This document shows positions 3,001 through 15,393 of a stretch of 20,255 nt of DNA, piece by piece. This stretch comes from a virus. Location: IMG/VR virus record IMGVR_UViG_3300037114_000181, positions 1 to 20,255 of that record. One strand, given 5' to 3'. The notes under the pieces were generated by a model, which ran no database searches, was not told where the DNA came from, and saw only the letters and a program-made list of their open reading frames with translations. The translations under genes and the position numbers were made by a program. Positions within the stretch are counted from its first letter, which is position 1. Every line of letters begins with the position of its first letter.

Positions 3001-4141
3001 GACGCTGGGGCAGGGCTACGAAGAGAAGATGATGCCATGGCTGCGCACCATCATCAACGATCGCAACGGCAGCGCAGTGCAGGGCCTCGGCGACTTTTCA
3101 AAGATGGTCCGATCGCTGCGCACCAACCTGACCCTCGCGACGCTGTCCTATAAAGTCTCGACGTCGCTGCTGCAGTGGACGCACGCGCCGCGGATGCTGC
3201 TGTCGACCAACCCAGGATCCTACGCGCAGGCGATGGTCGACTTCCTGGCACACCCGTCCGACATGAGCCAACAGATCAAAGACCTGTCGCCGAATGAGAT
3301 GGCGTTCCGCGGCGAGAATCTCGTCCGCGACATCCGCGCAACTCTGCGGGGCCAGCCGGGGATCCAGCGCAGCGTGGCGCGGGTGGGCAACGTCTCGATC
3401 AAATACACCGACCAGCTGCTGAGCTTCCCGCTGTGGCTCTCGGTCTACCGCGACGGCCTGAAGGAACACGCGGCCCTGACCGAGGATCGCGCACAGAACC
3501 TGGCTATGCATGCGGCCGACTCTGCGGTGCGCCTGGGGCTGGGATCCGCGGCGCCGAAGGACCTGCCTCCGATCATGCGCAATAGCGATCTCTCGAAGCT
3601 GCTGACGATGTTCTACAGCTTCCACAACGGGATCTACGGCCAGGTGCGCGACATCGGCCACCAGTTCAACCAGAACGGCGGCGCCGGCAGCATCAGTGCA
3701 GTCGGCAAACTGAGCTACGGCCTGGCGCTCTCGGTGCTGGTGCCGTCGCTGATGGGTGGAATGGTCTCGGGCAACGGGCCGAAGGATGGCGAGAACAAAG
3801 GCCTGTGGGCGGCCAAGCGGGCGCTGCTGTTCGGCGCCGACACGGTGCCAGTGGTGCGCGATGCGGCCTCGGCGCTCGACAGCGATGGCGAAGTGAAGAA
3901 TCCGCTGATGAACGTGCTGATCAAGGGCACCAAGGCGACCCAGGAAGCGATGAGCGACTCGGGCGACAAGGATTGGAACGGGATCGGGCTCAACTATCTC
4001 GAGGTGGGCGGAGATGTCGCAGGCGTGCCGGGAACGACCCAGGCGATAAAGCCGTTGCGCTACATGAACCAGGTGCAGCGGGGCAACGTCGAAAACCCGA
4101 ACGTGTGGGATGCGGTGGCGGGATCAGGCGCGCACCGCTAG
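2..4141 (+). CDS. Large phage virion / polyvalent-type protein with HExxH metallopeptidase site (5' partial)
   Basis: The reading frame is open from base 2, so the true start lies left of the window; the GTG at 50 is only the first possible start inside it. Counting from that GTG, a WFRVLPDGSYEIG motif occurs twice and leads into DLSTFVHEPAHAYLKIL, with H140, E141 and H144 forming an HExxH zinc-metallopeptidase site. This arrangement is typical of the MPTase-type domain in phage polyvalent and internal virion proteins. The middle is mainly helical and charged. A GGYYPVMMDP motif lies near residue 890, and the C-terminal third resembles the LPD38-type region of large podovirus proteins, with a hydrophobic stretch around residues 1221-1242. 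In related phages such proteins travel in the capsid and enter the cell with the DNA; that role is inferred here. The stop codon overlaps that of the convergent gene 4138-4476. Confidence 0.85.
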   Translation, partial: NALGEALAGADSVRGAVGGEDEGRPAAGETGSADASTASDVLTLYQSAKRKALQEEPGPLLPGMEDSPAGREQANADMQREAMEARLRSPKGDIGRAAGARGWFRVLPDGSYEIGTGENPTLFQSGDGTRGWFRVLPDGSYEIGKTKFGDLSTFVHEPAHAYLKILGYLVRRGGASDALRSDYEKVLEFLGVPAGRGNLDIEFTREQQETWARANEQYLREGKAPSPGLEDAFQRFAIWMGSVYKKASDLGVTLSDDIRGVFDRLYAAEDGVNKAERDAGPKLFTSPEEAGWTQDQFKKYADDNNMTAEQAKSDLLGRLNEAAVQARSEAWRNEEQNVRTAVTAEVDQRPEYSAIRSLRKGQLDDGTEIAMSKDELVKQFGEDRVASLQKQHPGLYRNDGGEEPEIVAEVFGYKSAADMMNALELAPRRSAAIDTATRDYMTAKHGDIRYDGTLDDQARIALENDKRADSLYTELKALKQKVADAQGNQQAMRSIEVAPIDSYREAAQQMVEKKAVADLQPTRYLDASRKYSREAFDALRSGDAQAAANAKHKELMNHFLFREGTKAKEYVGKFEAYAKRVQKPAAQGQLGLAGSDYQDQFNRILGRYGLAPMPGPADRTLAEWAADQYDQGKEPAIDPAILNESRTVNYRNAPVSEIRQVHDALVNVRKLASLELGMTVNGQRIEFRSAIANMDAQAHASLPTKPTRVIERNASLGEKISDYTQRGDALLMRTERLIEWMDGGKTGPWHDNLWNLAADSQGNEYALQEKVTKQLGDALENMPKDQRAKMNEKVTVAGVPNGPGGIETRHDLVSIAMNMGNDGNLDRLQKTFAAHGWEPYAIENIKGMLTASEWKFVQDSWDSLKPLGLAQSELERRLTGLPPVMVKPTPLEFKSIDGVEMHLAGGYYPVMMDPKFSARGAQQDVGTTAQNLMEAGYGRAATSRGNMKQRTGYGGPMQLDYEQVLTQHTAKVIKDITHREFMLAANKLLLDPQIRQTMRETLGQGYEEKMMPWLRTIINDRNGSAVQGLGDFSKMVRSLRTNLTLATLSYKVSTSLLQWTHAPRMLLSTNPGSYAQAMVDFLAHPSDMSQQIKDLSPNEMAFRGENLVRDIRATLRGQPGIQRSVARVGNVSIKYTDQLLSFPLWLSVYRDGLKEHAALTEDRAQNLAMHAADSAVRLGLGSAAPKDLPPIMRNSDLSKLLTMFYSFHNGIYGQVRDIGHQFNQNGGAGSISAVGKLSYGLALSVLVPSLMGGMVSGNGPKDGENKGLWAAKRALLFGADTVPVVRDAASALDSDGEVKNPLMNVLIKGTKATQEAMSDSGDKDWNGIGLNYLEVGGDVAGVPGTTQAIKPLRYMNQVQRGNVENPNVWDAVAGSGAHR
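300..434 (+). repeat. Exact 48-bp direct repeat inside the large virion gene
   Basis: Bases 300-347 are repeated without mismatch at 387-434. The offset is 87 bp, which keeps the reading frame. Each copy encodes RGWFRVLPDGSYEIG just upstream of the HExxH site. Perfect identity including synonymous positions points to a recent tandem duplication of a 29-codon unit. Confidence 0.95.
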
Positions 4142-4476
4142 AACTTGTTCCACAAGGGCGCTAAGACGAGGCCCAACCCATAGGCTGCTGCGGTGATGAC
4201 AACGGCAGCGGCGAGGGCTCCAGGTCCATTGAGGAAGAACTGCTTGAGTTTCTCGAGGTTTCCCAGATACTCTGCTCCGGCTCCGCATCGCATCACGTGT
4301 TCTGCGCAGGGGCGGCACATCGCATAGGTGCTCCCGTCGCGAGGGTGGAAGACCTGCTTGGTTGCTCGCGCTCCACAACGAACATAGTGCCCGGGGTACC
4401 CGGAGATGGGCTGCTCACAGGTCGGCGAGGGCGACGGAACGCGCCCCAGAGCCCCAATTTGTTTTTCATCTGGCAT
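4138..4476 (-). CDS. Small zinc-ribbon membrane protein, antisense to the late genes
   Basis: The ATG at 4476 gives 112 residues and has a GGAAGAGGG Shine-Dalgarno-like run upstream; an in-frame TTG at 4503 would add nine residues. Cysteines at 20, 34, 54 and 57 (CxxC in the second pair, with a further Cys64) suggest a zinc ribbon. Residues about 86-108 form one hydrophobic segment, so the protein is probably membrane-anchored at its C-terminus. No homologue is recognised. It runs against every neighbour, converges on the large virion gene with overlapping stops (CTAG), and diverges from the tail-fibre gene. This is the arrangement of a moron-type accessory gene. The function is unknown. Confidence 0.6.
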   Translation of the reverse strand: MPDEKQIGALGRVPSPSPTCEQPISGYPGHYVRCGARATKQVFHPRDGSTYAMCRPCAEHVMRCGAGAEYLGNLEKLKQFFLNGPGALAAAVVITAAAYGLGLVLAPLWNKF

Positions 4477-4520
4477 CGCGGCACCCTCTTCCCGGTGGGC
4501 CAATCCTACGCCCGCGCTCG

Positions 4521-4553
4521 ATACCCGTAACAGGTTTATTTCGCTCTAGCCTC
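4521..4553 (+). promoter_or_regulatory. Bipartite 33-bp element, copy 1 (before tail fibre)
   Basis: The left half is ATACCCGTAAC followed by AGG, and the right half is TCGCTCTAGCCTC. The halves are separated by a variable block. The same layout recurs at 8324 and 11104 with identical spacing. GTAAC and TAGCCTC are 15 bp apart, which would suit a bipartite promoter. This copy lies in the divergent gap between 4476 and 4572, 18 bp before the tail-fibre ATG, with a GAGG ribosome-binding site in between. Confidence 0.6.
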
Positions 4554-4571
4554 AAATCGAGGTCCTCCCGC

Positions 4572-5219
4572 ATGACGATCAGCTCGACCACACGGATTGC
4601 GGGACCGTTCACCGGCAACGGGGTGGCGTACCTCTTCCCCTTCGCATTCAAGGTATTCGCGGCCGGGGACCTGTTTGTTGCCTCTGCGCTGATCTCAACC
4701 GGAGTACAGACCGATCTGGTGCTGGGCACCGACTACACGGTCGCGCTGAACGCCAACCAGGACGCAAACCCCGGCGGCACGGTGATCCTGACCGCGGGGC
4801 CGCTGGCTGTGGGGTATCGCCTGACCGTCACCTCCGACCTCCAGAACCTGCAGCCGACCGAGTTCATCAACCAGGGCGGCTTCTACCCGGAAGTTCTGAC
4901 TGCCTCGCTCGACCGCGCCACAATCCAGATCCAGCAGCTGCAGGACAGCGTGGACCTGTCGCTGCAGTTCCCCATCACCGATCCGGCCACAAACAACATC
5001 CTGCCCTCGGCTGAAGAGCGCGCTGGGCTGATCTTGGGCTTCGATGTGGACGGAGCGCCGATCGCAGTTGCCCCGCTCCCGGGACCGGCGGGGCCCCCGG
5101 GAACGATCGCGGCGGCCATGTCGATCACCATCATCGATTCCGCCGTCACTGGCCCGAATGTTGGCCAGCAGTACACCCTGACCATCCTCGACGGCACCCC
5201 GACCTGGACCCCAATTTAG
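4572..5219 (+). CDS. Tail fibre protein with T7-type N-terminal domain
   Basis: The ATG at 4572 is preceded by GAGG nine bases upstream; the frame is open further upstream but that part is not coding-like. The 215-residue product opens with MTISSTTRIAGPFTGNGVAY, then LFPFAFKVFAAGDLFV, LGTDYTVALNANQDANPGG and a helical SLDRATIQIQQLQDSVD segment. This is the order seen in the virion-attachment domain of T7 gp17-like tail fibres. After about residue 150 it has only a short collagen-like GPAGPPG stretch and a small C-terminal region, so it may be an adaptor carrying a separate receptor-binding protein. The spike-like gene begins 12 bp downstream and fits that role. Expression is probably driven from the element at 4521. 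Confidence 0.85.
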   Translation: MTISSTTRIAGPFTGNGVAYLFPFAFKVFAAGDLFVASALISTGVQTDLVLGTDYTVALNANQDANPGGTVILTAGPLAVGYRLTVTSDLQNLQPTEFINQGGFYPEVLTASLDRATIQIQQLQDSVDLSLQFPITDPATNNILPSAEERAGLILGFDVDGAPIAVAPLPGPAGPPGTIAAAMSITIIDSAVTGPNVGQQYTLTILDGTPTWTPI

Positions 5220-5231
5220 GAGACAAGCACT

Positions 5232-7487
5232 GTGAAGTTCTCTCGCGTATTGATGTTTGCGCTGCTGCTGCCGCTTGCGCTGAGCTGCGCGGCGCGCGCC
5301 CAGATCGTGCGCCCCACTACTCAGACGCTTGCGAGCGCCGGCGCCTACTCGGCAGGAACCACCTATGCAATCGGCAACGTAGTCTCGTCCAGCGGCAGCT
5401 CCTACGTGTCGCTGATCGTGAACAATCACGGCAACACGCCCGCGTCCAGCCCGTCCGATTGGGCGTCGTTCGGGGGCGGCGGAGCCAGCGCGCTTGCGCT
5501 GATTCCGGCGGAGATTTATGGAGCCAACGGCAACTCGACGGGAGTCACCGGCAACGGGTTCGACAACACGACGGCGCTGACGAGCTGCATCAGCGCGCTG
5601 TCGGGCACCTACATCGGCTGCCTGCTGCAGGCCGAAACCTACCGCACCACAGGCACGCTGACACTGAGTGGAAACAGCACAGGCATCGTCGGCACGTCTG
5701 CCGGGCAGGCCTCACCCGTCGCGCCCAGCGGCTATGCCGGGCCCACGTCGACCATCATGATCGACAGCCCGACGGCGACGGGCCTCCAGGTCAACGGCGT
5801 CTGGAATGTACTGCAGAGTTTCAATGTCATCCGGCCGGTCCTGCCGACGGGGAGCGCTGCGGGCATCGCCTTTGGTCCTTTGGCCGGCGGCGAAATTGCA
5901 AACCGCCTGAATGTCTCGGACAACATCTACGGCTTCTACTTCCCGCAGGGTGGATCGAGCGCCGACGGCATTGGGATGTTTGCGAACCTGCAGGCCATCA
6001 ACGGGCAGAACCCGCATGTGACCGGCTATGGGAGCACCCGAACCTACGGCTTCTACCTTGGATCCGACCTCACCCACTCGTTCGCAAGCATCCTGTTTTC
6101 CAACATAGGGGTCTCCGATGTGACTGCCGACGGCAACGAGATCGGCTTTGAGCTAATCGGGGCGCAGAGCAACGACGTGGACGTGATCGGATACGGGATC
6201 GCCTCGAATGGGCTCTATGGCATCGATGTGAACTGCACCAGCCTGACAGGGTGCTATGACGATCACTTTTCGCAACTGACCATCCAGGGAACGGGTACGA
6301 GCTCCGGCTGCATTCACGTCTCGGAGCAGGCAACGGCTTTCAGCACGTCCCAGCTTGAGTTTGATCATGGCTGGTGCGGCGTGACCGGCGCGACCTTCGA
6401 CGTAGAGAATAGCCAGGCGGTCACCTTCGATGATTTCCAGGTGTACGGCGCAGGCCTGGGCGTCCCGGGGCCTCCTTCGACTGTCGTCAATTCCAACAGG
6501 ATCGCTTTTCGGCACATCAACTTCACCGGATCACCGCAGGTGAATATCACAGGCACGACGGCGTCAATTTTCAGCGAGAACATGGGCCAAGGTTCTAATC
6601 CCATGTCCCCGTGTCTGTTCTGCTTTATCGGCTCTTCAAACAACGCGGTGAATGGCAACGTAGGCTACGCGCCGACGGGCCATGGCCTTGCTTCAGTCGC
6701 CAGCTTCGACAGCGCAAGTAACAGCAACGCCGCATGCGGCAACAATATCGCGGGGCCAGGTACCATCGGCTCAATTCTTTCTGACGCCGGAAGCGGCAAC
6801 GGCTGCCAGAGCGTTGCGCCACCGACCAGCCCGCTAGAGGCGTGGCTATCGCAGGATGGCACATTGCCGTTGCAGAACACTGGAACGGATTCCACCAACA
6901 CCGCGACCGGCAGCGGGGTGACCTTCGCATCCTCAAGCGGATTCACCAACCCGGTCGCAACCTATAGCGGCAGCGGCGGCGCTACGGCTGCGAGCGACGC
7001 CCTAACTAATTTCGACGGGACCCACGGCTTCACAGTCTCTGCGTGGATCAATCCAACCGCGGTCACCGGGGTGCAGGAAGTCGTCGCAGACACAGACGCA
7101 ACGACCTTCACCGGCTGGCAGCTGCAGCTGAACGGCTACCAGGTCCAATTCGGCGTGATCGCAAACGCGGGAACCAGCAATGGCGCCTACGCGCAGACGA
7201 TCGGAGCTACCCGAATCACTGCAGGCGCTTTGAATCACGTCTGCGGGCAGTATGACGGCTCAGGCACTGTTGCCGGCGTGAAGATATACATCAATGGCGT
7301 GCTCCAAACTAGCGGCGTACTGATGAGCACACTCAGCGGTTCTGCAGCCAGCGGCAACCCGGTTTCGCTGGGGTTTCAAGGATCGGGCGGCAGCAACTTT
7401 ACCGGAGCGATGGGGAACGTCGAAGTTTTCACTTCGCTCGTATCCTGCCCAGCGCTCTACGGAAAGGGACCAAATGTCGTTTACTAA
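5232..7487 (+). CDS. Tail-spike-like protein with signal peptide, beta-helix region and C-terminal LamG-type domain
   Basis: The GTG start has AGGAGA upstream. The first 23 residues form a convincing Sec signal peptide: a basic N-terminus (MKFSR), a hydrophobic core and an ARA|Q cleavage site. Residues about 37-80 resemble a small carbohydrate-binding module (YSAGTTYAIGNVVSS ... DWASFG). From about residue 95 a Gly/Ser/Asn-rich repetitive region starting IYGANGNSTG has the character of a right-handed parallel beta-helix, as in tail spikes with pectate-lyase-like folds. Residues about 534-745 look like a concanavalin A/LamG-type jelly roll (FTVSAWINP, VKIYINGVLQ). The total length is 751 residues. 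Its position after the tail-fibre gene supports host-surface binding or glycan processing. A signal peptide is unusual for a phage spike, so a secreted prophage-encoded surface protein is the alternative. Confidence 0.75.
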   Translation: MKFSRVLMFALLLPLALSCAARAQIVRPTTQTLASAGAYSAGTTYAIGNVVSSSGSSYVSLIVNNHGNTPASSPSDWASFGGGGASALALIPAEIYGANGNSTGVTGNGFDNTTALTSCISALSGTYIGCLLQAETYRTTGTLTLSGNSTGIVGTSAGQASPVAPSGYAGPTSTIMIDSPTATGLQVNGVWNVLQSFNVIRPVLPTGSAAGIAFGPLAGGEIANRLNVSDNIYGFYFPQGGSSADGIGMFANLQAINGQNPHVTGYGSTRTYGFYLGSDLTHSFASILFSNIGVSDVTADGNEIGFELIGAQSNDVDVIGYGIASNGLYGIDVNCTSLTGCYDDHFSQLTIQGTGTSSGCIHVSEQATAFSTSQLEFDHGWCGVTGATFDVENSQAVTFDDFQVYGAGLGVPGPPSTVVNSNRIAFRHINFTGSPQVNITGTTASIFSENMGQGSNPMSPCLFCFIGSSNNAVNGNVGYAPTGHGLASVASFDSASNSNAACGNNIAGPGTIGSILSDAGSGNGCQSVAPPTSPLEAWLSQDGTLPLQNTGTDSTNTATGSGVTFASSSGFTNPVATYSGSGGATAASDALTNFDGTHGFTVSAWINPTAVTGVQEVVADTDATTFTGWQLQLNGYQVQFGVIANAGTSNGAYAQTIGATRITAGALNHVCGQYDGSGTVAGVKIYINGVLQTSGVLMSTLSGSAASGNPVSLGFQGSGGSNFTGAMGNVEVFTSLVSCPALYGKGPNVVY

Positions 7488-7884
7488 GATCGCCGCGCTA
7501 TGCCTGGTCACTCTGACTATGGCAGTCACCGGCTGCACCAGCTTCGAGCGCAGCACCTTTGAGAAGCTGGCGGCGTCGCAGGCAGTCGTGAACGCGGCGC
7601 AGCTTGACTACGAAGGCGGCGCCATCCCGAAGACCCAGGCGGCCTATGTTGCGATCACCAGGGCGAAGGCGATGGCGCAGATCCCAGAGCAGGCGATGGT
7701 GACCTACGAGGGCACGAAGGACGCCGCCACACGAGAGAAGCAGCAAAGGATTGTGGCGAGCGCGCTGCCGCAGCTTCCGGCCATGATTGCGGCTGTCGAG
7801 GCGCTGGACCCGAATGCGGCGAAGGCTACGCCGCTGACTATCGTGCCTGTCCCAGCGCCCGCGCTGAGTCCACCTACGAACTAA
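7474..7884 (+). CDS. Small lipoprotein of unknown function
   Basis: The ATG overlaps the end of the spike gene by 14 bp and has AAGGGA upstream, so the two are probably co-translated. The 136-residue product has a lipoprotein signal peptide ending in the lipobox VTGC (Cys21). The mature part is helical, rich in Ala, Gln and Lys, and ends in a Pro-rich tail (PVPAPALSPPTN). No family is recognised. A proline-rich lipoprotein shortly before a lysis cassette could act as an outer-membrane spanin, but it is longer than most such proteins and lies 480 bp upstream of the inner-spanin candidate. That assignment is a guess. Confidence 0.75.
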   Translation: MSFTKIAALCLVTLTMAVTGCTSFERSTFEKLAASQAVVNAAQLDYEGGAIPKTQAAYVAITRAKAMAQIPEQAMVTYEGTKDAATREKQQRIVASALPQLPAMIAAVEALDPNAAKATPLTIVPVPAPALSPPTN

Positions 7885-7893
7885 AGGAGCACT

Positions 7894-8319
7894 GTGCGCA
7901 GAATCGTACTCGCCTGTTTCGTTCTTCTCGCTGCTGCCGCGATCCCGATCCGCGCTCAGACCGCGACAAGCTGCCCGGCGTTTGTGCCGGCGTCACAGTG
8001 GGACGGCATCGCCGGCGAGCCGATCGGCGGCCAGTTCAACGAGATCGCGACCGTCCCAGCCGGCACCGTTTACTCCCCTGACGGCGTGAATTGTTTCACC
8101 GCGACCGCCGCTACCGTGGTGAACACCATGAGCCAGCCGACGCTCTTTGTGTTGCGCACGACATTGCTGCAGGTGATCCCAATCACCTACGAACTGGCTC
8201 CCGCTTATGAGGTGTTCGGATACTCGTTTTATTTCAGCTACACCGACTATGTGCCGGTGCCGCCGGCGCCGGACGGAACCCCTTACACCGACTGGCTGGG
8301 TAACAGCTGGATCTCCTAG
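7894..8319 (+). CDS. Secreted protein of unknown function
   Basis: The GTG start is supported by AAAGGAG seven bases upstream, and the gene begins nine bases after the lipoprotein gene. The 141-residue product has a Sec signal peptide with a predicted IRA|Q cleavage after residue 21. The mature part is rich in aromatic residues and proline, with two cysteines (mature SCPAF and VNCF) that could form a disulfide. It looks like a compact beta protein. It is the third consecutive gene encoding an exported product. No family is recognised. Confidence 0.7.
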   Translation: MRRIVLACFVLLAAAAIPIRAQTATSCPAFVPASQWDGIAGEPIGGQFNEIATVPAGTVYSPDGVNCFTATAATVVNTMSQPTLFVLRTTLLQVIPITYELAPAYEVFGYSFYFSYTDYVPVPPAPDGTPYTDWLGNSWIS

Positions 8320-8323
8320 CCCA

Positions 8324-8356
8324 GTACCCGTAACGGGGCGATCTCGCCCTAGCCTC
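8324..8356 (+). promoter_or_regulatory. Bipartite 33-bp element, copy 2 (before lysis cassette)
   Basis: The left half is GTACCCGTAAC followed by GGG, and the right half is TCGCCCTAGCCTC. Length and internal spacing match the copies at 4521 and 11104. It starts five bases after the preceding stop codon and ends nine bases before the ATG at 8366, so it occupies almost the whole intergenic gap ahead of the lysis genes. Confidence 0.6.
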
Positions 8357-8365
8357 AAAAGTGAG

Positions 8366-8647
8366 ATGAATCACGTCCTCGAGGCGCCTAGCGACGCGAC
8401 CCACCCGCAACCAGGCTTCCGCATGCCCTACGCCATCGCCGCGCCCTTCGCCGCGCTGGCGATCGCCATCGGCACCTGGTGCTTTGGGCAGAGCGAGCGG
8501 TTGACCGCGGCCGAGACCGAGATCCGACACCTGGCCACATCCGACCAGGTCGCCGCGCAGACGCAGAAGCTGGACGATTTCCAACGCGAGTACGAGCGCG
8601 ACCGGATCAACGACCAGGTACGCGAGCAGAGGGTCGCTAAGCCATGA
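8366..8647 (+). CDS. Small membrane protein with coiled coil, inner-spanin-like
   Basis: The ATG at 8366 lies just after the conserved element; earlier in-frame starts would read through the previous gene and the element. The 93-residue product has one membrane segment (about residues 24-44, PYAIAAPFAALAIAIGTW) followed by a charged, heptad-like helix (ETEIRHLATSDQVAAQ, KLDDFQREYERDRIND). This topology, directly upstream of and overlapping (ATGA) the endolysin gene, fits an i-spanin or another lysis accessory protein. It carries no diagnostic motif, so the role rests on topology and position. Confidence 0.65.
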   Translation: MNHVLEAPSDATHPQPGFRMPYAIAAPFAALAIAIGTWCFGQSERLTAAETEIRHLATSDQVAAQTQKLDDFQREYERDRINDQVREQRVAKP

Positions 8648-9126
8648 ACGACACCCTGAACCAGAGCTTGATCGGCTGCCACGAAGGCCTGCGCCTGAAG
8701 GTCTACAGGGACACGCGCGGCTTCTGGACCATCGGCCGCGGATTCAACCTCGACGCGCCAGGCGCGCGAGCGGTGTGCGCCGCGGCCGGCGTCGACTACG
8801 ACGCGGTGATGACAGGAGCGGCAATCACACTCGACCAGGCGGCGGCGATTTTCGGCAGCCAGTACGCGACCGTGGCGGCCGAGGCGCGTAAGGCGATTCC
8901 TGGCATCGACGGAGATCCGGACAACGCCGGCGCCGTGGTCTGCGACATGATCTTTGAACTTGGGCTGGCCGGCTTGCTGGCCTTCCATAACGCGATCGCG
9001 GGAATCAAGGCGAGGAACTGGCCGGCGGCGATCGCCGGCATGCAGGCCTCGGCGTGGGCGAAGCAGGTGCCGAGCCGGGAGATAAACGACGTCGCGCTGC
9101 TCGAAGCGCTCGTGAGCCCTGCATGA
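8644..9126 (+). CDS. Endolysin, T4-lysozyme-like muramidase (GH24 type)
   Basis: The N-terminus HEGLRLKVYRDTRGFWTIGRG matches the catalytic segment of T4-type lysozymes. E14, D23 and T29 have the same spacing as T4 lysozyme E11, D20 and T26. The 160-residue length is normal for the family. It would cleave the MurNAc-GlcNAc bond of peptidoglycan at lysis. There is no signal peptide or anchor sequence, so release to the periplasm should need a holin; the small membrane protein at 9334 is the nearest candidate. The start overlaps the preceding gene (ATGA) and the stop overlaps the next one in the same way, so translation is probably coupled. Confidence 0.92.
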   Translation: MNDTLNQSLIGCHEGLRLKVYRDTRGFWTIGRGFNLDAPGARAVCAAAGVDYDAVMTGAAITLDQAAAIFGSQYATVAAEARKAIPGIDGDPDNAGAVVCDMIFELGLAGLLAFHNAIAGIKARNWPAAIAGMQASAWAKQVPSREINDVALLEALVSPA

Positions 9127-9314
9127 CCGCGGCGCCGGCGCTGCTGGAAGACTTGAGCGCGATGCCCGCCGAGCAGCTGGTGAGCCTGGTGGTGCATCTG
9201 CGACAGATTGTCGCGGAAAAGATCGAGGACCTGAGCCAGGCGCGCAACGTGGTGAACGACCTGATCGACGAACGCGACGCGGCGCGGCTGCTGAACGAGC
9301 TTTGCCACTACTGA
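9123..9314 (+). CDS. Small helical protein in the lysis cassette, unknown function
   Basis: The ATG overlaps the endolysin stop (ATGA). The 63-residue product is almost wholly predicted helix with a possible coiled coil (SLVVHLRQIVAEKIEDLSQARNVVNDLIDERDAARL) and no membrane segment or cysteine motif. No family is recognised. The tight coupling on its upstream side is the main evidence that it is real. Confidence 0.6.
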   Translation: MTAAPALLEDLSAMPAEQLVSLVVHLRQIVAEKIEDLSQARNVVNDLIDERDAARLLNELCHY

Positions 9315-9333
9315 CGAATATCGAGGAAAAGCG

Positions 9334-9522
9334 ATGAACGACCTGAAGAACAACTCGCTGGGCTTTGTGCTGCTGGGCCTCGGGATTGGGGTGGTGTTGC
9401 TCGGCCACTACACGCGGATCGACAAGCTGGCCGACTCCGGCTTCGCCCTGATCGGCATGGCCGGGTTCGCGCTGAAGGCGAGCATGCAAAGCCCAAAAGC
9501 GCCGGAGTCCCCAACGCCGTGA
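9334..9522 (+). CDS. Small two-segment membrane protein, holin candidate
   Basis: GAGGAAAAGCG precedes the ATG. The 62 residues contain two hydrophobic segments (about 10-25, FVLLGLGIGVVLLGHY, and 35-50, SGFALIGMAGFALKA) separated by a short polar loop, and a polar proline-containing tail. Size, topology and position downstream of an endolysin fit a class II-like holin. Sequence alone cannot separate a holin from other small phage membrane proteins. Confidence 0.65.
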   Translation: MNDLKNNSLGFVLLGLGIGVVLLGHYTRIDKLADSGFALIGMAGFALKASMQSPKAPESPTP

Positions 9523-10007
9523 CCGCCATGCTGTCTTTTTTCAAACACGCACCACCAACCGAAGTACGGCGAGAGCCGGAGGTCCCCATCATCATGAGCA
9601 TCGAAAGCGGCATCAAGGCAGACGCAGAGAAGGCACTCACCGTTTTAGAGGCAGTCGGAAAGGACTTCGCGAAGGGGCTGACCGTCGTTGTGAAGTACGC
9701 CCCTGAAGGCGCTGCGCTCGCCAACGCGATCTTCCCGGCGTCCATCGCAGTCACCCCGGAAGCGGTTGCAGCAGTCAACCTGCTCCAGAACACGATTCTC
9801 GCGACCGAGGCAAAGTATGCCGCGTCGGGCGCTGCAACCGGAACCGGCGCACAGAAGGCCGCAGAAGTCCTCGCCGTGTCTGGGCCCGCTGCAGCCTCGC
9901 TCCTGACCAGCGCGGGCGCTCCTGCTTCCACCACGACCAGAATAGGAAACATCGTCACCGCCATCGTTGGGGTGATGAACGTGCAGACCGCAGTCGCGGC
10001 TGCGTAG
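9519..10007 (+). CDS. Alanine-rich protein of unknown function
   Basis: The GTG at 9519 overlaps the preceding stop (GTGA) and gives 162 residues. The ATG at 9594, with GGAGGT ten bases upstream, is a good alternative and would begin MSIESGIKADAEKAL, where the sequence becomes clearly protein-like. The product is rich in Ala, Thr and Val, helical, and has weakly hydrophobic segments, including the C-terminal IGNIVTAIVGVMNVQTAVAAA, but no clear membrane helix. No family is recognised. Confidence 0.6.
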   Translation: MTAMLSFFKHAPPTEVRREPEVPIIMSIESGIKADAEKALTVLEAVGKDFAKGLTVVVKYAPEGAALANAIFPASIAVTPEAVAAVNLLQNTILATEAKYAASGAATGTGAQKAAEVLAVSGPAAASLLTSAGAPASTTTRIGNIVTAIVGVMNVQTAVAAA

Positions 10008-10076
10008 CTGCATATTGCTGCATAATTTGCAGCGTTTTGCTGCACTTACCGCACCGGATTACTGCATAACTGCATG
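10008..10076 (+). promoter_or_regulatory. Cluster of phased TGCA-core repeats
   Basis: TGCA occurs at 10009, 10019, 10029, 10041, 10063 and 10071, mostly as CTGCATA or CTGCAC, with one inverted copy (TTGCAG near 10028) and a degenerate CGCA near 10050. Spacings of about 8-13 bp are close to one helical turn. It fills the gap before the gene at 10074 and extends over its start. It could be an operator array or another protein-binding cluster. Confidence 0.4.
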
Positions 10077-10748
10077 ACCAAGCTGCTCAACACACTGAAG
10101 GCCGTCGCCCTGGTCGCCCTGACCGCGGCGGCGGTCCTCGTGTGTGTGTTGCTCTATAGCCTCAACTCCGCAGTGAAGCGCGGAGAAGTTGCACTAAGCG
10201 GGACCGCGGTGCGGGTGAACGGCCTGCTCGACCAGAGCCAGAAGACCGGCCTGGAAGTGAGTAAGCTGGTCAACGATTCCCGGGTGACGCTCTCCGAGGT
10301 CAACCGCGGCGCACTCGATGAACGCAAGTACTTCGAGGTCCAGCTTCCGCAGATCCTCGCGCAGACCTCGGGCGTGCTGACCAATGTGCAGACGGCCACC
10401 GCCGACCTGGATCCACTTCTAAAGGAGACCACCGCGCGCGTCGCGGATCTCAAACCTATCGAGACCAACGCGGCCCAGGCGGCCGCCGACGCTGACACCG
10501 CCATCACCGACCCGCACATCAAGGCCTCGCTGGCGAACGTTGACGCGGCTAGCTCACAGTTTGTGCTCGCCGCGACCCAGGGCGTCGCCATTGCCGGCGA
10601 CGTGAAGGCCACCACCGGCAGCGTGAAGGCGATCGCAGCCGACGGCCAGGCCGAGGTTCACTCGCTCACCCACCCCACCGCCATGGTCACGATCGCCAAC
10701 TGGACCCTGAAGGCGGTCCACGCGCTCGGCGGCTGGTGGTCACCGTAG
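10074..10748 (+). CDS. Membrane-anchored helical protein, unknown function
   Basis: The ATG at 10074 lies inside the TGCA repeat cluster and has no strong Shine-Dalgarno sequence. The 224-residue product has an N-terminal membrane segment (about residues 9-30, AVALVALTAAAVLVCVLLYSL) followed by a long helical region (VNGLLDQSQKTGLEVSKLV ... SGVLTNVQTATADLDPLL) and an aromatic C-terminus (ALGGWWSP). The layout resembles periplasmic coiled-coil proteins anchored in the inner membrane. Its place after the lysis genes would allow a spanin-like or cell-envelope role. No family was recognised. Confidence 0.65.
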   Translation: MTKLLNTLKAVALVALTAAAVLVCVLLYSLNSAVKRGEVALSGTAVRVNGLLDQSQKTGLEVSKLVNDSRVTLSEVNRGALDERKYFEVQLPQILAQTSGVLTNVQTATADLDPLLKETTARVADLKPIETNAAQAAADADTAITDPHIKASLANVDAASSQFVLAATQGVAIAGDVKATTGSVKAIAADGQAEVHSLTHPTAMVTIANWTLKAVHALGGWWSP

Positions 10749-10779
10749 CACGGACATCCGTCTTCAGGGTACGAAGTGC

Positions 10780-11049
10780 CTAGCGGCCGGCGCCGGCGTG
10801 CTGTTTTTCAGCCTCTTCGACGCCTTCGCGCTGGCCAGCGTTGGCCACGTTCCAGTCGGTGGCGAGGATGTCGGCCGCGTCCGGATTGTAGGCCGTGCAT
10901 TCGCCATTGGCGATGCGGCGGAAGAGGAAGGGCTCGGTGATCTTGCCGGTGGGCGGCTGAAGCCCGAGCGCCATGCCCTGGCGGTTCCAGCCGGTGCGGG
11001 TGATGAAGCTGCCATTCAGGAGTGCTCTGAGTGCGTCGCCAAAGTTCAT
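10780..11049 (-). CDS. tad2: DUF2829 / Tad2-like Thoeris anti-defence protein
   Basis: The ATG at 11049 has GGAGG seven bases upstream, which sets the start and rejects the much longer upstream extension of the frame. The 89-residue product opens MNFGDALRALLNGSFITRTG, then W21-N-R-Q-G-M, and has DAADILATDWNV near residues 58-68. These match the family signature MNFGEAL...R.GWNGKGM...DILA.DW of DUF2829, the Tad2 family. Characterised Tad2 proteins bind the cyclic ADP-ribose signals made by ThsB and so stop Thoeris NADase activation; that activity is inferred here from family membership. The last ~15 residues (EGVEEAEKQHAGAGR) are a charged tail. The gene is opposed to the late genes on both sides and probably has its own promoter. 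Confidence 0.8.
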   Translation of the reverse strand: MNFGDALRALLNGSFITRTGWNRQGMALGLQPPTGKITEPFLFRRIANGECTAYNPDAADILATDWNVANAGQREGVEEAEKQHAGAGR

Positions 11050-11103
11050 GGAGTGCCTCCGTTTTGGTGCAAGACAACTGTAACCCCAACGCGCACGGCA
11101 GCG

Positions 11104-11136
11104 ATACCCGTAACGGGTTTTCGCCGCTCTAGCCTC
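11104..11136 (+). promoter_or_regulatory. Bipartite 33-bp element, copy 3 (before last late operon)
   Basis: The left half is ATACCCGTAAC followed by GGG, and the right half is CCGCTCTAGCCTC. It lies in the divergent gap between the Tad2-like gene and 11143. Only six bases separate it from the ATG and no Shine-Dalgarno sequence fits between. If the element is a promoter, this transcript would be nearly leaderless. Confidence 0.6.
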
Positions 11137-12471: not shown

Positions 12472-13377
12472 CTAAAGCCCCATGTTGTCGTTGACGGCGC
12501 CGCGCAGATTCTGTGCCGTGCCCAGGTAGCGCTGGGTGGTGCGGAGGTCGGCGTGTCCAAGCATGAATTGGATCTGCTCGATATCGCCGCCGGCTTCGCG
12601 GCAAAGGCGCGCGCAGGTGCGGCGCAGGTCATGCGGGCTGAATTGCTTGACTCCGATCTTCTCCGCGGCTTTCTGGACGATGCCGCGGATGCCATCGGTG
12701 CTCAGCCCCTCGGGCTTGAGGGTGAGCTGGCGGATCAGCCGGCCTTCGGTGATCTTCGCCGCCTTAGTCCACCCGTCGATCGCCTGTTTGACCCAGGTGG
12801 GCACGGCGACTGTCCGGACGCGGCCGCCCTTGCCCATCATGTCGGCCAGCACCCAACGGCCATCGCGCTGCTGGATCGTCACCACCTCCAACCTCGCCAG
12901 CTCGTCCAGGCGGATCGCGGTGCCTCCGAGGATCGACAGGATGCATCGATTGCGGAGCGAGCGGAGATGCTTTCCGCTGGGCACGGCGAGCAGCCGGCGG
13001 AGCTGTGGAACGGTGAGCCAGTTGCCCATGCGCGATCCGCGGAAGGGCAGGCCATCGATCTGCAGCAGCTCGGTGGCCTCCTCGAGCGAGATCATCTTGG
13101 TCCGCTGCGCCTCCCGGATCAGCTTGCGCGCGGCGGTGAGCCGGGCGTTGACCGTCCCGGTCGACAGCGTGGCGGCCATGGCCAGGCGCCACTCCTGTAG
13201 GAGCGCCAGGGTCACCGGACGCCCAGCCGCGAAGGCGTACATGTCTCGAATCCCCTTGGCGTAGCTCTCCCGGGTGTGGACGCTGGGCAAGGACGAAATA
13301 ACCAAATCGACGAGGGAGGTTGGAATGGTCCCGCGGGATAGCAGACCAGTGGCGGGTTTGATGCGTGGGGCGGGCAT
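12472..13377 (-). CDS. Tyrosine recombinase, Xer/integrase type
   Basis: The 301-residue length is typical of XerC/XerD-like and small phage integrases. The N-terminal part (about 20-95) has the SAM-like core-binding form (HTRESYAKGIRDMYAFA, TVNARLTAARKLIREA). The catalytic domain is complete: R156 in TAIRLDELARL, K183 in MGKGGRVRTV, H249 and R252 in SPHDLRRTCA, H275 in LGHADLRTTQRYLG and nucleophile Y284. It converges on the late operon and starts beside the palindrome-rich gap at 13378-13463, which may hold its target or operator. It is probably the integrase or resolvase of the left-hand phage. No good ribosome-binding site is seen before the ATG at 13377. Confidence 0.92.
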   Translation of the reverse strand: MPAPRIKPATGLLSRGTIPTSLVDLVISSLPSVHTRESYAKGIRDMYAFAAGRPVTLALLQEWRLAMAATLSTGTVNARLTAARKLIREAQRTKMISLEEATELLQIDGLPFRGSRMGNWLTVPQLRRLLAVPSGKHLRSLRNRCILSILGGTAIRLDELARLEVVTIQQRDGRWVLADMMGKGGRVRTVAVPTWVKQAIDGWTKAAKITEGRLIRQLTLKPEGLSTDGIRGIVQKAAEKIGVKQFSPHDLRRTCARLCREAGGDIEQIQFMLGHADLRTTQRYLGTAQNLRGAVNDNMGL

Positions 13378-14142: not shown

Positions 14143-14227
14143 TGGTGCGAAAGGGGGGACTCGAACCCCCACGGATTTCTCCGCCAGATCCTAAGTCTGG
14201 TGCGTCTGCCAATTCCGCCACTTTCGC
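14143..14227 (-). tRNA. tRNA-Leu (anticodon UAG)
   Basis: The 5' acceptor strand GCGAAAG (14227-14221) pairs with CTTTCGC (14153-14147), followed by discriminator A and an encoded CCA (14145-14143). The anticodon arm is CCAGA-CTTAGGA-TCTGG, giving anticodon TAG, which reads CUA leucine codons. The long variable arm (CGGAGAAATCCG) is the class II form expected of Leu. The T arm is GGGGG-TTCGAGT-CCCCC. It is complete, with no sign of disruption. Confidence 0.95.
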
Positions 14228-14232
14228 ACTGA

Positions 14233-15393
14233 TTACAAATGATTTATACCTGACTTGCGAGACCTCGTCGAACCCCTGTGGGGATTTTGTGGGGACCTTG
14301 GAGCCACTCCCCCCATATTCGCCACAAAGGCCTGCCGGACTTGCTCCCGCTGCGGGTGCACATACTTCTCGGTGGTCTTGATCGAGGAGTGCCCAGCGAT
14401 CTTCTTCAACGTGAACACGTCAACCGTCTCTCCCAACTGGGTCAGGAAGGTGTGGCGCAGAGTGTGGAGTCCAGCATCGGCGTGGAACTGTCCGTTACGC
14501 TTCATGTCTCGGGCCTGCCCTCCCAATGTCTCAACGCTAAGCGGCTGGCGAACATCAGTCAAGGCGGTGAACACGAACTTGCACCGGGAAGAGACCAGCA
14601 GTGAGACCAGCGCCTTCCGCATCGGCTCGTTGATGATTAGCGTCCGGCGACGGGCCTGACGCTTCAGCCCGCGTCTGACTTCGATCTCTCCCCACATCCC
14701 ATCCGCGTCTGATTTGGCCAGAAGGTGCAGACAGTCGGTCTGGAGCGCGAGGAGCTCGCCTCGGCATATTCCGCAATTCCGGGCCAGGATGGAGGCGGAA
14801 CGCAAGGGCTCCGGGCAGGCAGTAAGCCAGGCCTCGTACGCGTCGTCGGTGAAGACGTACTCCCGTTCCCGCTCGCAGCCGTCGTCCGACTTCGGGAAGA
14901 GGGGAACAGTGGGAACGGAAGGGATCAATTTTAGGGGATCGTGTGCGTGGTACAGAGCTTTGCGGAGGGTGGCAAGATAACGGTTGATGGTGGTTCGACC
15001 CACCACTTTGCCCTTTTCCGGACGAAAGGTCACCCTCCAGTCCTTGAATCGTTCGACCATTGCGGCATCGATGGCCGTGAGCTTGGCATTCGCCAGCTCG
15101 GGGTAATCGAGGAGACGGGAAAAGCTGATGGTGTAGAACTCTTGTGTGTCGGGACGATCCCGGTGGACCTTGCCCAACCATTTTACGAATATCGGCTCGA
15201 ACTCGCTGAGCGTCGGAACGACAAGCCCAGGATCCGGTGCTAGACCTGCGTGGAACTTCACGTACTGTATACGGCGTGCGTCGGCGACGGTCTCGGCGTT
15301 ACGTCGGTTAGTCAGGCCCGTGCTGCCACGGTGGCGCTTTCCGGCGAACTGGAACTCATAGTGGTAGACGTCGCCGCGCTTGTAGACGTTCAT
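14233..15393 (-). CDS. int: Phage tyrosine integrase
   Basis: The ATG at 15393 has GAGG seven bases upstream. The 386-residue product begins with a short basic beta-rich arm-type region (MNVYKRGDVYHYEFQFAGKR), followed by a core-binding domain (about 60-165) and a catalytic domain. Catalytic residues are visible: R211 in GICRGELLALQ, a basic strand around K244, H310 and R313 in LHTLRHTFLT, H335 in AGHSSIKTTEKYV and Y344. It should catalyse site-specific integration and excision. It overlaps the excisionase-like gene by 38 bp and stops 5 bp from the 5' end of the tRNA-Leu gene. That position is unusual, because most tRNA-targeting integrases lie at the tRNA 3' end. Confidence 0.93.
   Translation of the reverse strand: MNVYKRGDVYHYEFQFAGKRHRGSTGLTNRRNAETVADARRIQYVKFHAGLAPDPGLVVPTLSEFEPIFVKWLGKVHRDRPDTQEFYTISFSRLLDYPELANAKLTAIDAAMVERFKDWRVTFRPEKGKVVGRTTINRYLATLRKALYHAHDPLKLIPSVPTVPLFPKSDDGCEREREYVFTDDAYEAWLTACPEPLRSASILARNCGICRGELLALQTDCLHLLAKSDADGMWGEIEVRRGLKRQARRRTLIINEPMRKALVSLLVSSRCKFVFTALTDVRQPLSVETLGGQARDMKRNGQFHADAGLHTLRHTFLTQLGETVDVFTLKKIAGHSSIKTTEKYVHPQREQVRQAFVANMGGVAPRSPQNPHRGSTRSRKSGINHL
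14273..14295 (-). repeat. TGTGGGGA direct repeat and CCCC-TGT-GGGG palindrome near the tRNA
   Basis: TGTGGGGA occurs at 14277-14284 and 14288-14295, 11 bp apart, and CCCCTGTGGGG spans 14273-14283. Both lie within the 3' end of the integrase reading frame, about 50 bp from the tRNA. They could be arm-type or core sites for the integrase, or chance in a coding region. Confidence 0.3.

Follow-up and report, generated by a model that had tools for sequence, protein, structure and literature searches.

Three spaced elements in the window

The stretch of DNA analyzed here (the window) comprises 20,255 bases and is an IMG/VR virus record. The record breaks off on the left within a large virion gene, so it lacks the terminase-capsid part of the phage. 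On the + strand, the window carries a tail-fibre gene, a lysis cassette, and a conserved late gene, each preceded by an intergenic copy of a bipartite element (Table 1). Three ungapped copies had been predicted, starting at 4521, 8324, and 11104 and ending 18, 9, and 6 nt before a start codon. Both the copies and the distances were borne out (ATGs at 4572, 8366, and 11143), and the recurrence is far beyond chance. A scan of the window with the pattern TACCCGTAACRGGN7CGCYCTAGCCTC returned matches at 4522, 8325, and 11105 (+) without mismatches and no further site when up to three mismatches were allowed; 100 dinucleotide shuffles of the window gave no match. GTAAC-N15-TAGCCTC occurs three times on the forward strand and never on the reverse, with no match for the reversed control, and the three-copy element ranks top among the window's direct-repeat families.

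Table 1. Positions of the elements and adjoining genes in the window, and of the element copies in the related contig G002 (G001 and G004 are further relatives).
Source	Feature	Position	Strand	Remarks
Window	Box 1 (GATACCCGTAAC)	4520..4531	+	Putative tail-fibre late promoter, about -39..-28
Window	-10 hexamer TAGCCT, tail-fibre promoter	4547..4552	+	Placed by TANNNT register; predicted transcription start near 4559
Window	Tail-fibre protein, 215 aa	4572..5219	+	PHROG tail families, E down to 1.5e-28
Window	Box 2 (AGTACCCGTAAC)	8323..8334	+	Abuts stop codon of preceding gene
Window	-10 hexamer TAGCCT, lysis promoter	8350..8355	+	Predicted start near 8362
Window	Small spanin-like ORF	8366..8647	+	First in lysis cassette; no family match of its own
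Window	Lysozyme	8644-9126		Next gene of lysis cassette; Phage_lysozyme PF00959, E 9e-8
Window	Box 3 (GATACCCGTAAC)	11103..11114	+	Orthologous copies before homologous gene in G001, G002, G004
Window	-10 hexamer TAGCCT, 11143-gene promoter	11130..11135	+	ATG 7 nt on; predicted leaderless transcript
Window	Conserved late gene, hypothetical, 151 aa	11143..11598	+	Homologues in G002 and G004 40-42% identical
G002	Element copy	28231	+	Before terminase operon
G002	Element copy	31592		Before acetyltransferase-portal operon
G002	Element copy	35281		Before capsid operon
G002	Element copy	9591		Before tail fibre
G002	Element copy	16220		Before homologue of window 11143 gene

The tail fibre is supported by PHROG, and the first lysis gene does precede a lysozyme gene and is spanin-like; the 11143 gene is conserved but hypothetical, and its product matched nothing in Pfam or PHROG searches. 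The predicted tail-fibre leader carries GAGG ahead of the ATG. Copies 2 and 3 could form a CCCG-TAA-CGGG hairpin, but this reading was set aside since copy 1 has CAGG, which disrupts the pairing. Two further observations concern the region upstream. The 1379-aa ORF contains a 52-nt direct repeat (296-347 and 383-434; 98% identical, 87 nt apart), which is a recent duplication or an assembly effect. A small opposite-strand ORF region (4138-4503, -) separates the large virion gene from the tail-fibre promoter, and G001, G002, G003, and G004 have opposite-strand ORFs in a similar place.

Anatomy and distribution of the probable promoters

Five related contigs (G001 to G005; 38.7-45.1 kb) were found with the 1379-aa ORF as query. 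They are 56-82% identical to the window in this ORF, and their portal proteins are 58-62% identical to that of Bordetella phage BPP-1; the head-tail module and gene order are held in common, which places the phage among BPP-1-like podoviruses. Scanning relatives had been suggested as a check, and the element does recur in them. The left half, gaTACCCGTAA, occurs up to six times per relative genome, nearly always ahead of late-strand operons, and the right half drifts (TAGCCT, TAAGCT, TACCCT, CATGAT, and TACAAA). Because the right half is clade-specific, the exact window consensus has no match in viral_contigs or genome_contigs. Relaxing the viral_contigs scan brought in mostly isolated matches, probably due to chance, which were left out of the results. 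The tail-fibre box has orthologous copies in all five relatives and in BPP-1, DC33, and zth2-2. G003, which seemed element-less at first, carries GATACACATAAC (GGTACACATAAC once) at three orthologous sites, with a spacer one nucleotide longer at all three.

Two other features were seen beside these copies. A near-perfect inverted repeat (e.g., TTGCTGCCCTCTAG CCTGCG CTAGAGGGCAGCAA) overlaps the -10 before the 11143-gene homologue in G001 (about 2013, -), G002 (16222, +), and G004 (6875, -). The window copy lacks this repeat, which could serve as an operator or as a recombination site. G002 (28231, +), G001 (33405, -), and G004 (40172, -) share a conserved 7-codon ORF past the terminase-operon element. 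It encodes MRSRNAF, MRSRYAL, and MRFRYAF and lies within GTAAC..ATATGCGG..CGTWACG.

We assembled a family set of 62 copies from 19 phage genomes or loci, including the window, its five close IMG/VR relatives, Bordetella BPP-1, Limnohabitans DC33, Caulobacter Jess A, zth2-2, and Massilia and Gallionella prophages (the last from a MAG). Two parts are conserved: an 11-12 nt box (GATACCCGTAA(C) in the window) at about -39 to -28, and TANNNT exactly 27 (rarely 28) nt from the box start. At a single fixed offset, with no choice of spacing, T-12 is present in 50 of 62 copies, A-11 in 57, and T-7 in 53. With one extra nucleotide allowed, the counts are 55, 61, and 57 of 61, which partly condition on A-11. 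Conservation hardly rises above background in the 15-nt middle or at the three inner positions of the hexamer. The proposed consensus thus describes the window copies, but its CGC-Y-C and the final C of its right half are confined to the window, the wider family keeping just TANNNT. With T-12, A-11, and T-7 kept and the rest free, this half bears the signature of a sigma70-type -10, and by its position the box occupies the place of a -35 element. Poor -10s are found among Jess A copies and terminase copies.

Copies head the terminase, portal, capsid, tail-fibre, and lysis operons, and none lies on the opposite strand in any genome of the set. The bipartite late promoter of the original prediction is therefore strongly supported by box and TANNNT at fixed spacing before late operons in 62 copies. 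An ATG or GTG follows the hexamer by 6-7 nt in 31 of the 62, a distance in keeping with the start about 7 nt past the hexamer expected of a sigma70-type promoter, and leaderless transcripts are accordingly predicted for about half of the copies. Leaders are longer at tail-fibre copies. One freshwater clade has its acetyltransferase start codon 1-2 nt past TANNNT, where a start at +1 would exclude that codon.

BPP-1, the model phage of diversity-generating retroelements, has four copies of GGTGCCCGTGCC-N15-hexamer, ahead of bbp26, bbp24, bbp19, and bbp9. The first falls inside the annotated 5' end of bbp26 (L222, NC_005357.1, 25734-26318), which probably begins at the in-frame start at 26255, 21 codons downstream of the annotated one. 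DC33, zth2-2, MW202640, Jess A, the Massilia prophage, and the Gallionella MAG each have their own box spelling. Related phages and prophages of known host come from Bordetella, Limnohabitans, Caulobacter, Massilia, and Gallionella, so the acidobacterial origin initially assumed is not established.

An unbiased search (a shared 12-mer, TANNNT 27/28 nt on, and an ORF start within 40 nt) recovered promoters in the window and 11 of 12 other lineage genomes, with reversed controls almost empty. Four copies in the twelfth, Jess A, were found by reading and by pattern. The same search gave no coherent box in six relatives that lack the small helix-turn-helix (HTH) gene described below: epsilon15, Carin1, AF, and BcepC6B yielded none, and MZH0603 (AT-rich) and PfDIW6 yielded only scattered pairs with no box in common. 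Across 80 loci bearing the HTH gene, a scan for box plus TANNNT gave 88 matches versus 2 in reversed sequence. In the L158/Massilia clade and in L150, boxes came to light only on inspection of the syntenic upstream regions. L183 is an exception: it bears the HTH gene, but its 13.8 kb yielded no box; there, a GNAT gene comes directly after the terminase gene.

A candidate reader and the alternatives

The likely reader of the box is a ~75-aa HTH protein of the Bbp27 family, whose gene lies just upstream of the terminase genes. A small HTH gene is kept directly 5' of the terminase genes in all five relatives; it is absent from the window itself, as the record lacks that part. The family occurs at no fewer than 111 IMG/VR loci (a lower bound: at least 111) and in cultured phages including Bordetella BPP-1, Caulobacter Jess A and its relatives, and Limnohabitans DC33. 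Direct tblastn detected Bbp27 in eight of nine box-bearing genomes, the ninth (G005) being recovered with a query from a closer relative, and in none of six box-less relatives. Because the phages with the HTH gene are more closely related among themselves than to the six without it, this co-presence may reflect common descent. Box and HTH distances correlate beyond portal distance (partial r 0.34, permutation p 0.019), and portal distance explains more of box distance (partial r 0.51). G003 has a close portal (74%) but the most divergent HTH (40%), and its box spelling is changed. Because box spelling also follows portal phylogeny, this co-variation is modest proof of reading. An AlphaFold model of the protein has three helices in an HTH arrangement, at low to modest confidence (pLDDT 63), and a structure search with it returned only generic HTH folds, including sigma region 4, none significant.

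Computation shows the element itself with its fixed geometry, where it is placed, that it is conserved, and that it occurs together with the Bbp27 family. Building on these, we propose that a BPP-1-like podovirus uses the elements as late promoters dependent on an activator. Host RNA polymerase carrying the primary sigma factor would recognize the TANNNT -10 and initiate there, the phage-specific box would stand in for the usual -35 contact, and the Bbp27-family protein would bind and read the box. As this protein accumulated late in infection, all late operons (terminase, portal, capsid, tail fibre, and lysis) would be turned on at once, with many transcripts beginning at or beside the start codon and being translated as leaderless mRNAs. 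That the elements are late promoters we consider very likely; that they are activated by a Bbp27-family protein with host sigma70 polymerase is, taken whole, probable.

Some other protein of the phage, or a factor of the host, might instead read the same promoters, with the Bbp27-family protein acting otherwise, for example with terminase. The tracking of portal phylogeny by box spelling is compatible with another reader, and another role would suit the protein's weak likeness to HNH-endonuclease and resolvase DNA-binding domains and the annotation of BPP-1 Bbp27 as 'endonuclease'. However, Bbp27 is the only non-structural BPP-1 gene common to box-bearing genomes, and box spelling is phage-specific while hosts vary, which speaks against a host factor. 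We regard this alternative as unlikely.

The two halves were originally attributed to a phage-modified or ECF-like sigma factor, as its -35 and -10. Fixed spacing and a conserved -35 region would be expected of such a factor, and sigma region-4 profiles match the HTH gene weakly, below cut-off (PF08281, E 0.019). Nevertheless, sigma region 2 (PF04542) was found in none of the five close relatives (control matches in 11 of 14 genomes), TANNNT with A-11 and T-7 is the sigma70 pattern, and an 11-nt box exceeds the usual -35 length; we consider an alternative sigma factor very unlikely. An activator reading a -35-region box beside ordinary host RNA polymerase fits better, because the right half resembles a sigma70-type -10 and the five relatives lack region 2. 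More speculatively, and with low probability, the Bbp27-family protein might be a stand-alone region-4-like HTH that takes over the sigma70 -35 contact, in which case a ~75-aa protein would redirect the host's polymerase to every late operon, most of the mRNAs being leaderless.

It is highly improbable that the boxes are repressor operators that silence the late genes in the lysogen. Such operators would suit temperate phages, as these are (they have integrase genes), and epsilon15 has annotated repressor sites near late genes; but ordinary promoters beneath them would have no -35 element other than the box, the box-to-(-10) spacing is exact, and BPP-1 cI is not common to the other box-bearing phages. 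Promoters of a phage single-subunit RNA polymerase, or translational or RNA elements, are hardly credible despite the nearby start codons: a T7-type promoter does not fit the unconserved 15-nt middle, BPP-1 has no annotated RNA polymerase gene, profile PF00940 matched none of the five relatives (though its control matched nowhere either), two of the three window copies are too near the ATG for a leader, and an Rfam search gave no match.

Relation to known systems

Activation of the late operons by a Bbp27-family protein would resemble T4 middle transcription combined with the Ltr/RinA arrangement, without sequence membership in either. In T4 middle promoters, a phage-specific MotA box replaces the -35 before a sigma70 -10, together with AsiA (PMC7403470). 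The elements likewise have a box in place of the -35 ahead of a sigma70-type -10, but they head late structural operons, their box is different and longer, and the candidate reader is a small HTH protein. Scans for other families turned up no MotA or AsiA homologue. In Gram-positive phages, the gene for a small RinA/Ltr late regulator lies directly 5' of terminase and the late promoter (PMC13123087), as does the Bbp27-family gene. However, the Bbp27-family HTH has no Pfam or PHROG match to those families, and several promoters are dispersed over each genome here versus the one late promoter described for phi13. Mu C/Mor offers a precedent for one phage activator serving several late promoters (PMC4461284), as the Bbp27-family protein would. 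Its matches to Mor (PF08765, E 0.054) and PHROG late-activator families (E 0.003-0.01) are, like those to sigma region 4, weak and below cut-off, and cover the HTH only. Promoters of leaderless genes, which are reported in Acidobacteria too (PMC3160421), have TANNNT about 12 bp 5' of the start codon (PMC3160421, PMC12340547). The TANNNT-to-start spacing is alike, but the elements have a conserved upstream box and leaderless spacing in only about half of the copies.

We found no published account of this promoter class or of Bbp27 function, and nothing relevant in the Rauchvirus literature on bbp27 or promoters; an earlier mention in the BPP-1 genome paper (J Bacteriol 2004) is possible. Our findings propose a concrete late-gene regulon for BPP-1 and many environmental relatives, and suggest what a family currently labelled hypothetical or endonuclease probably does. 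Furthermore, they would correct at least one gene start (bbp26) and add a phage system whose structural genes may be expressed from leaderless mRNAs.

Beyond the late genes, the window carries two tyrosine recombinase genes (12472-13377, - and 14233-15393, -). The second adjoins a tRNA-Leu gene (14143-14227) and an excisionase-like HTH gene, and the first is kept in G001 and G002, where it adjoins the last late operon.
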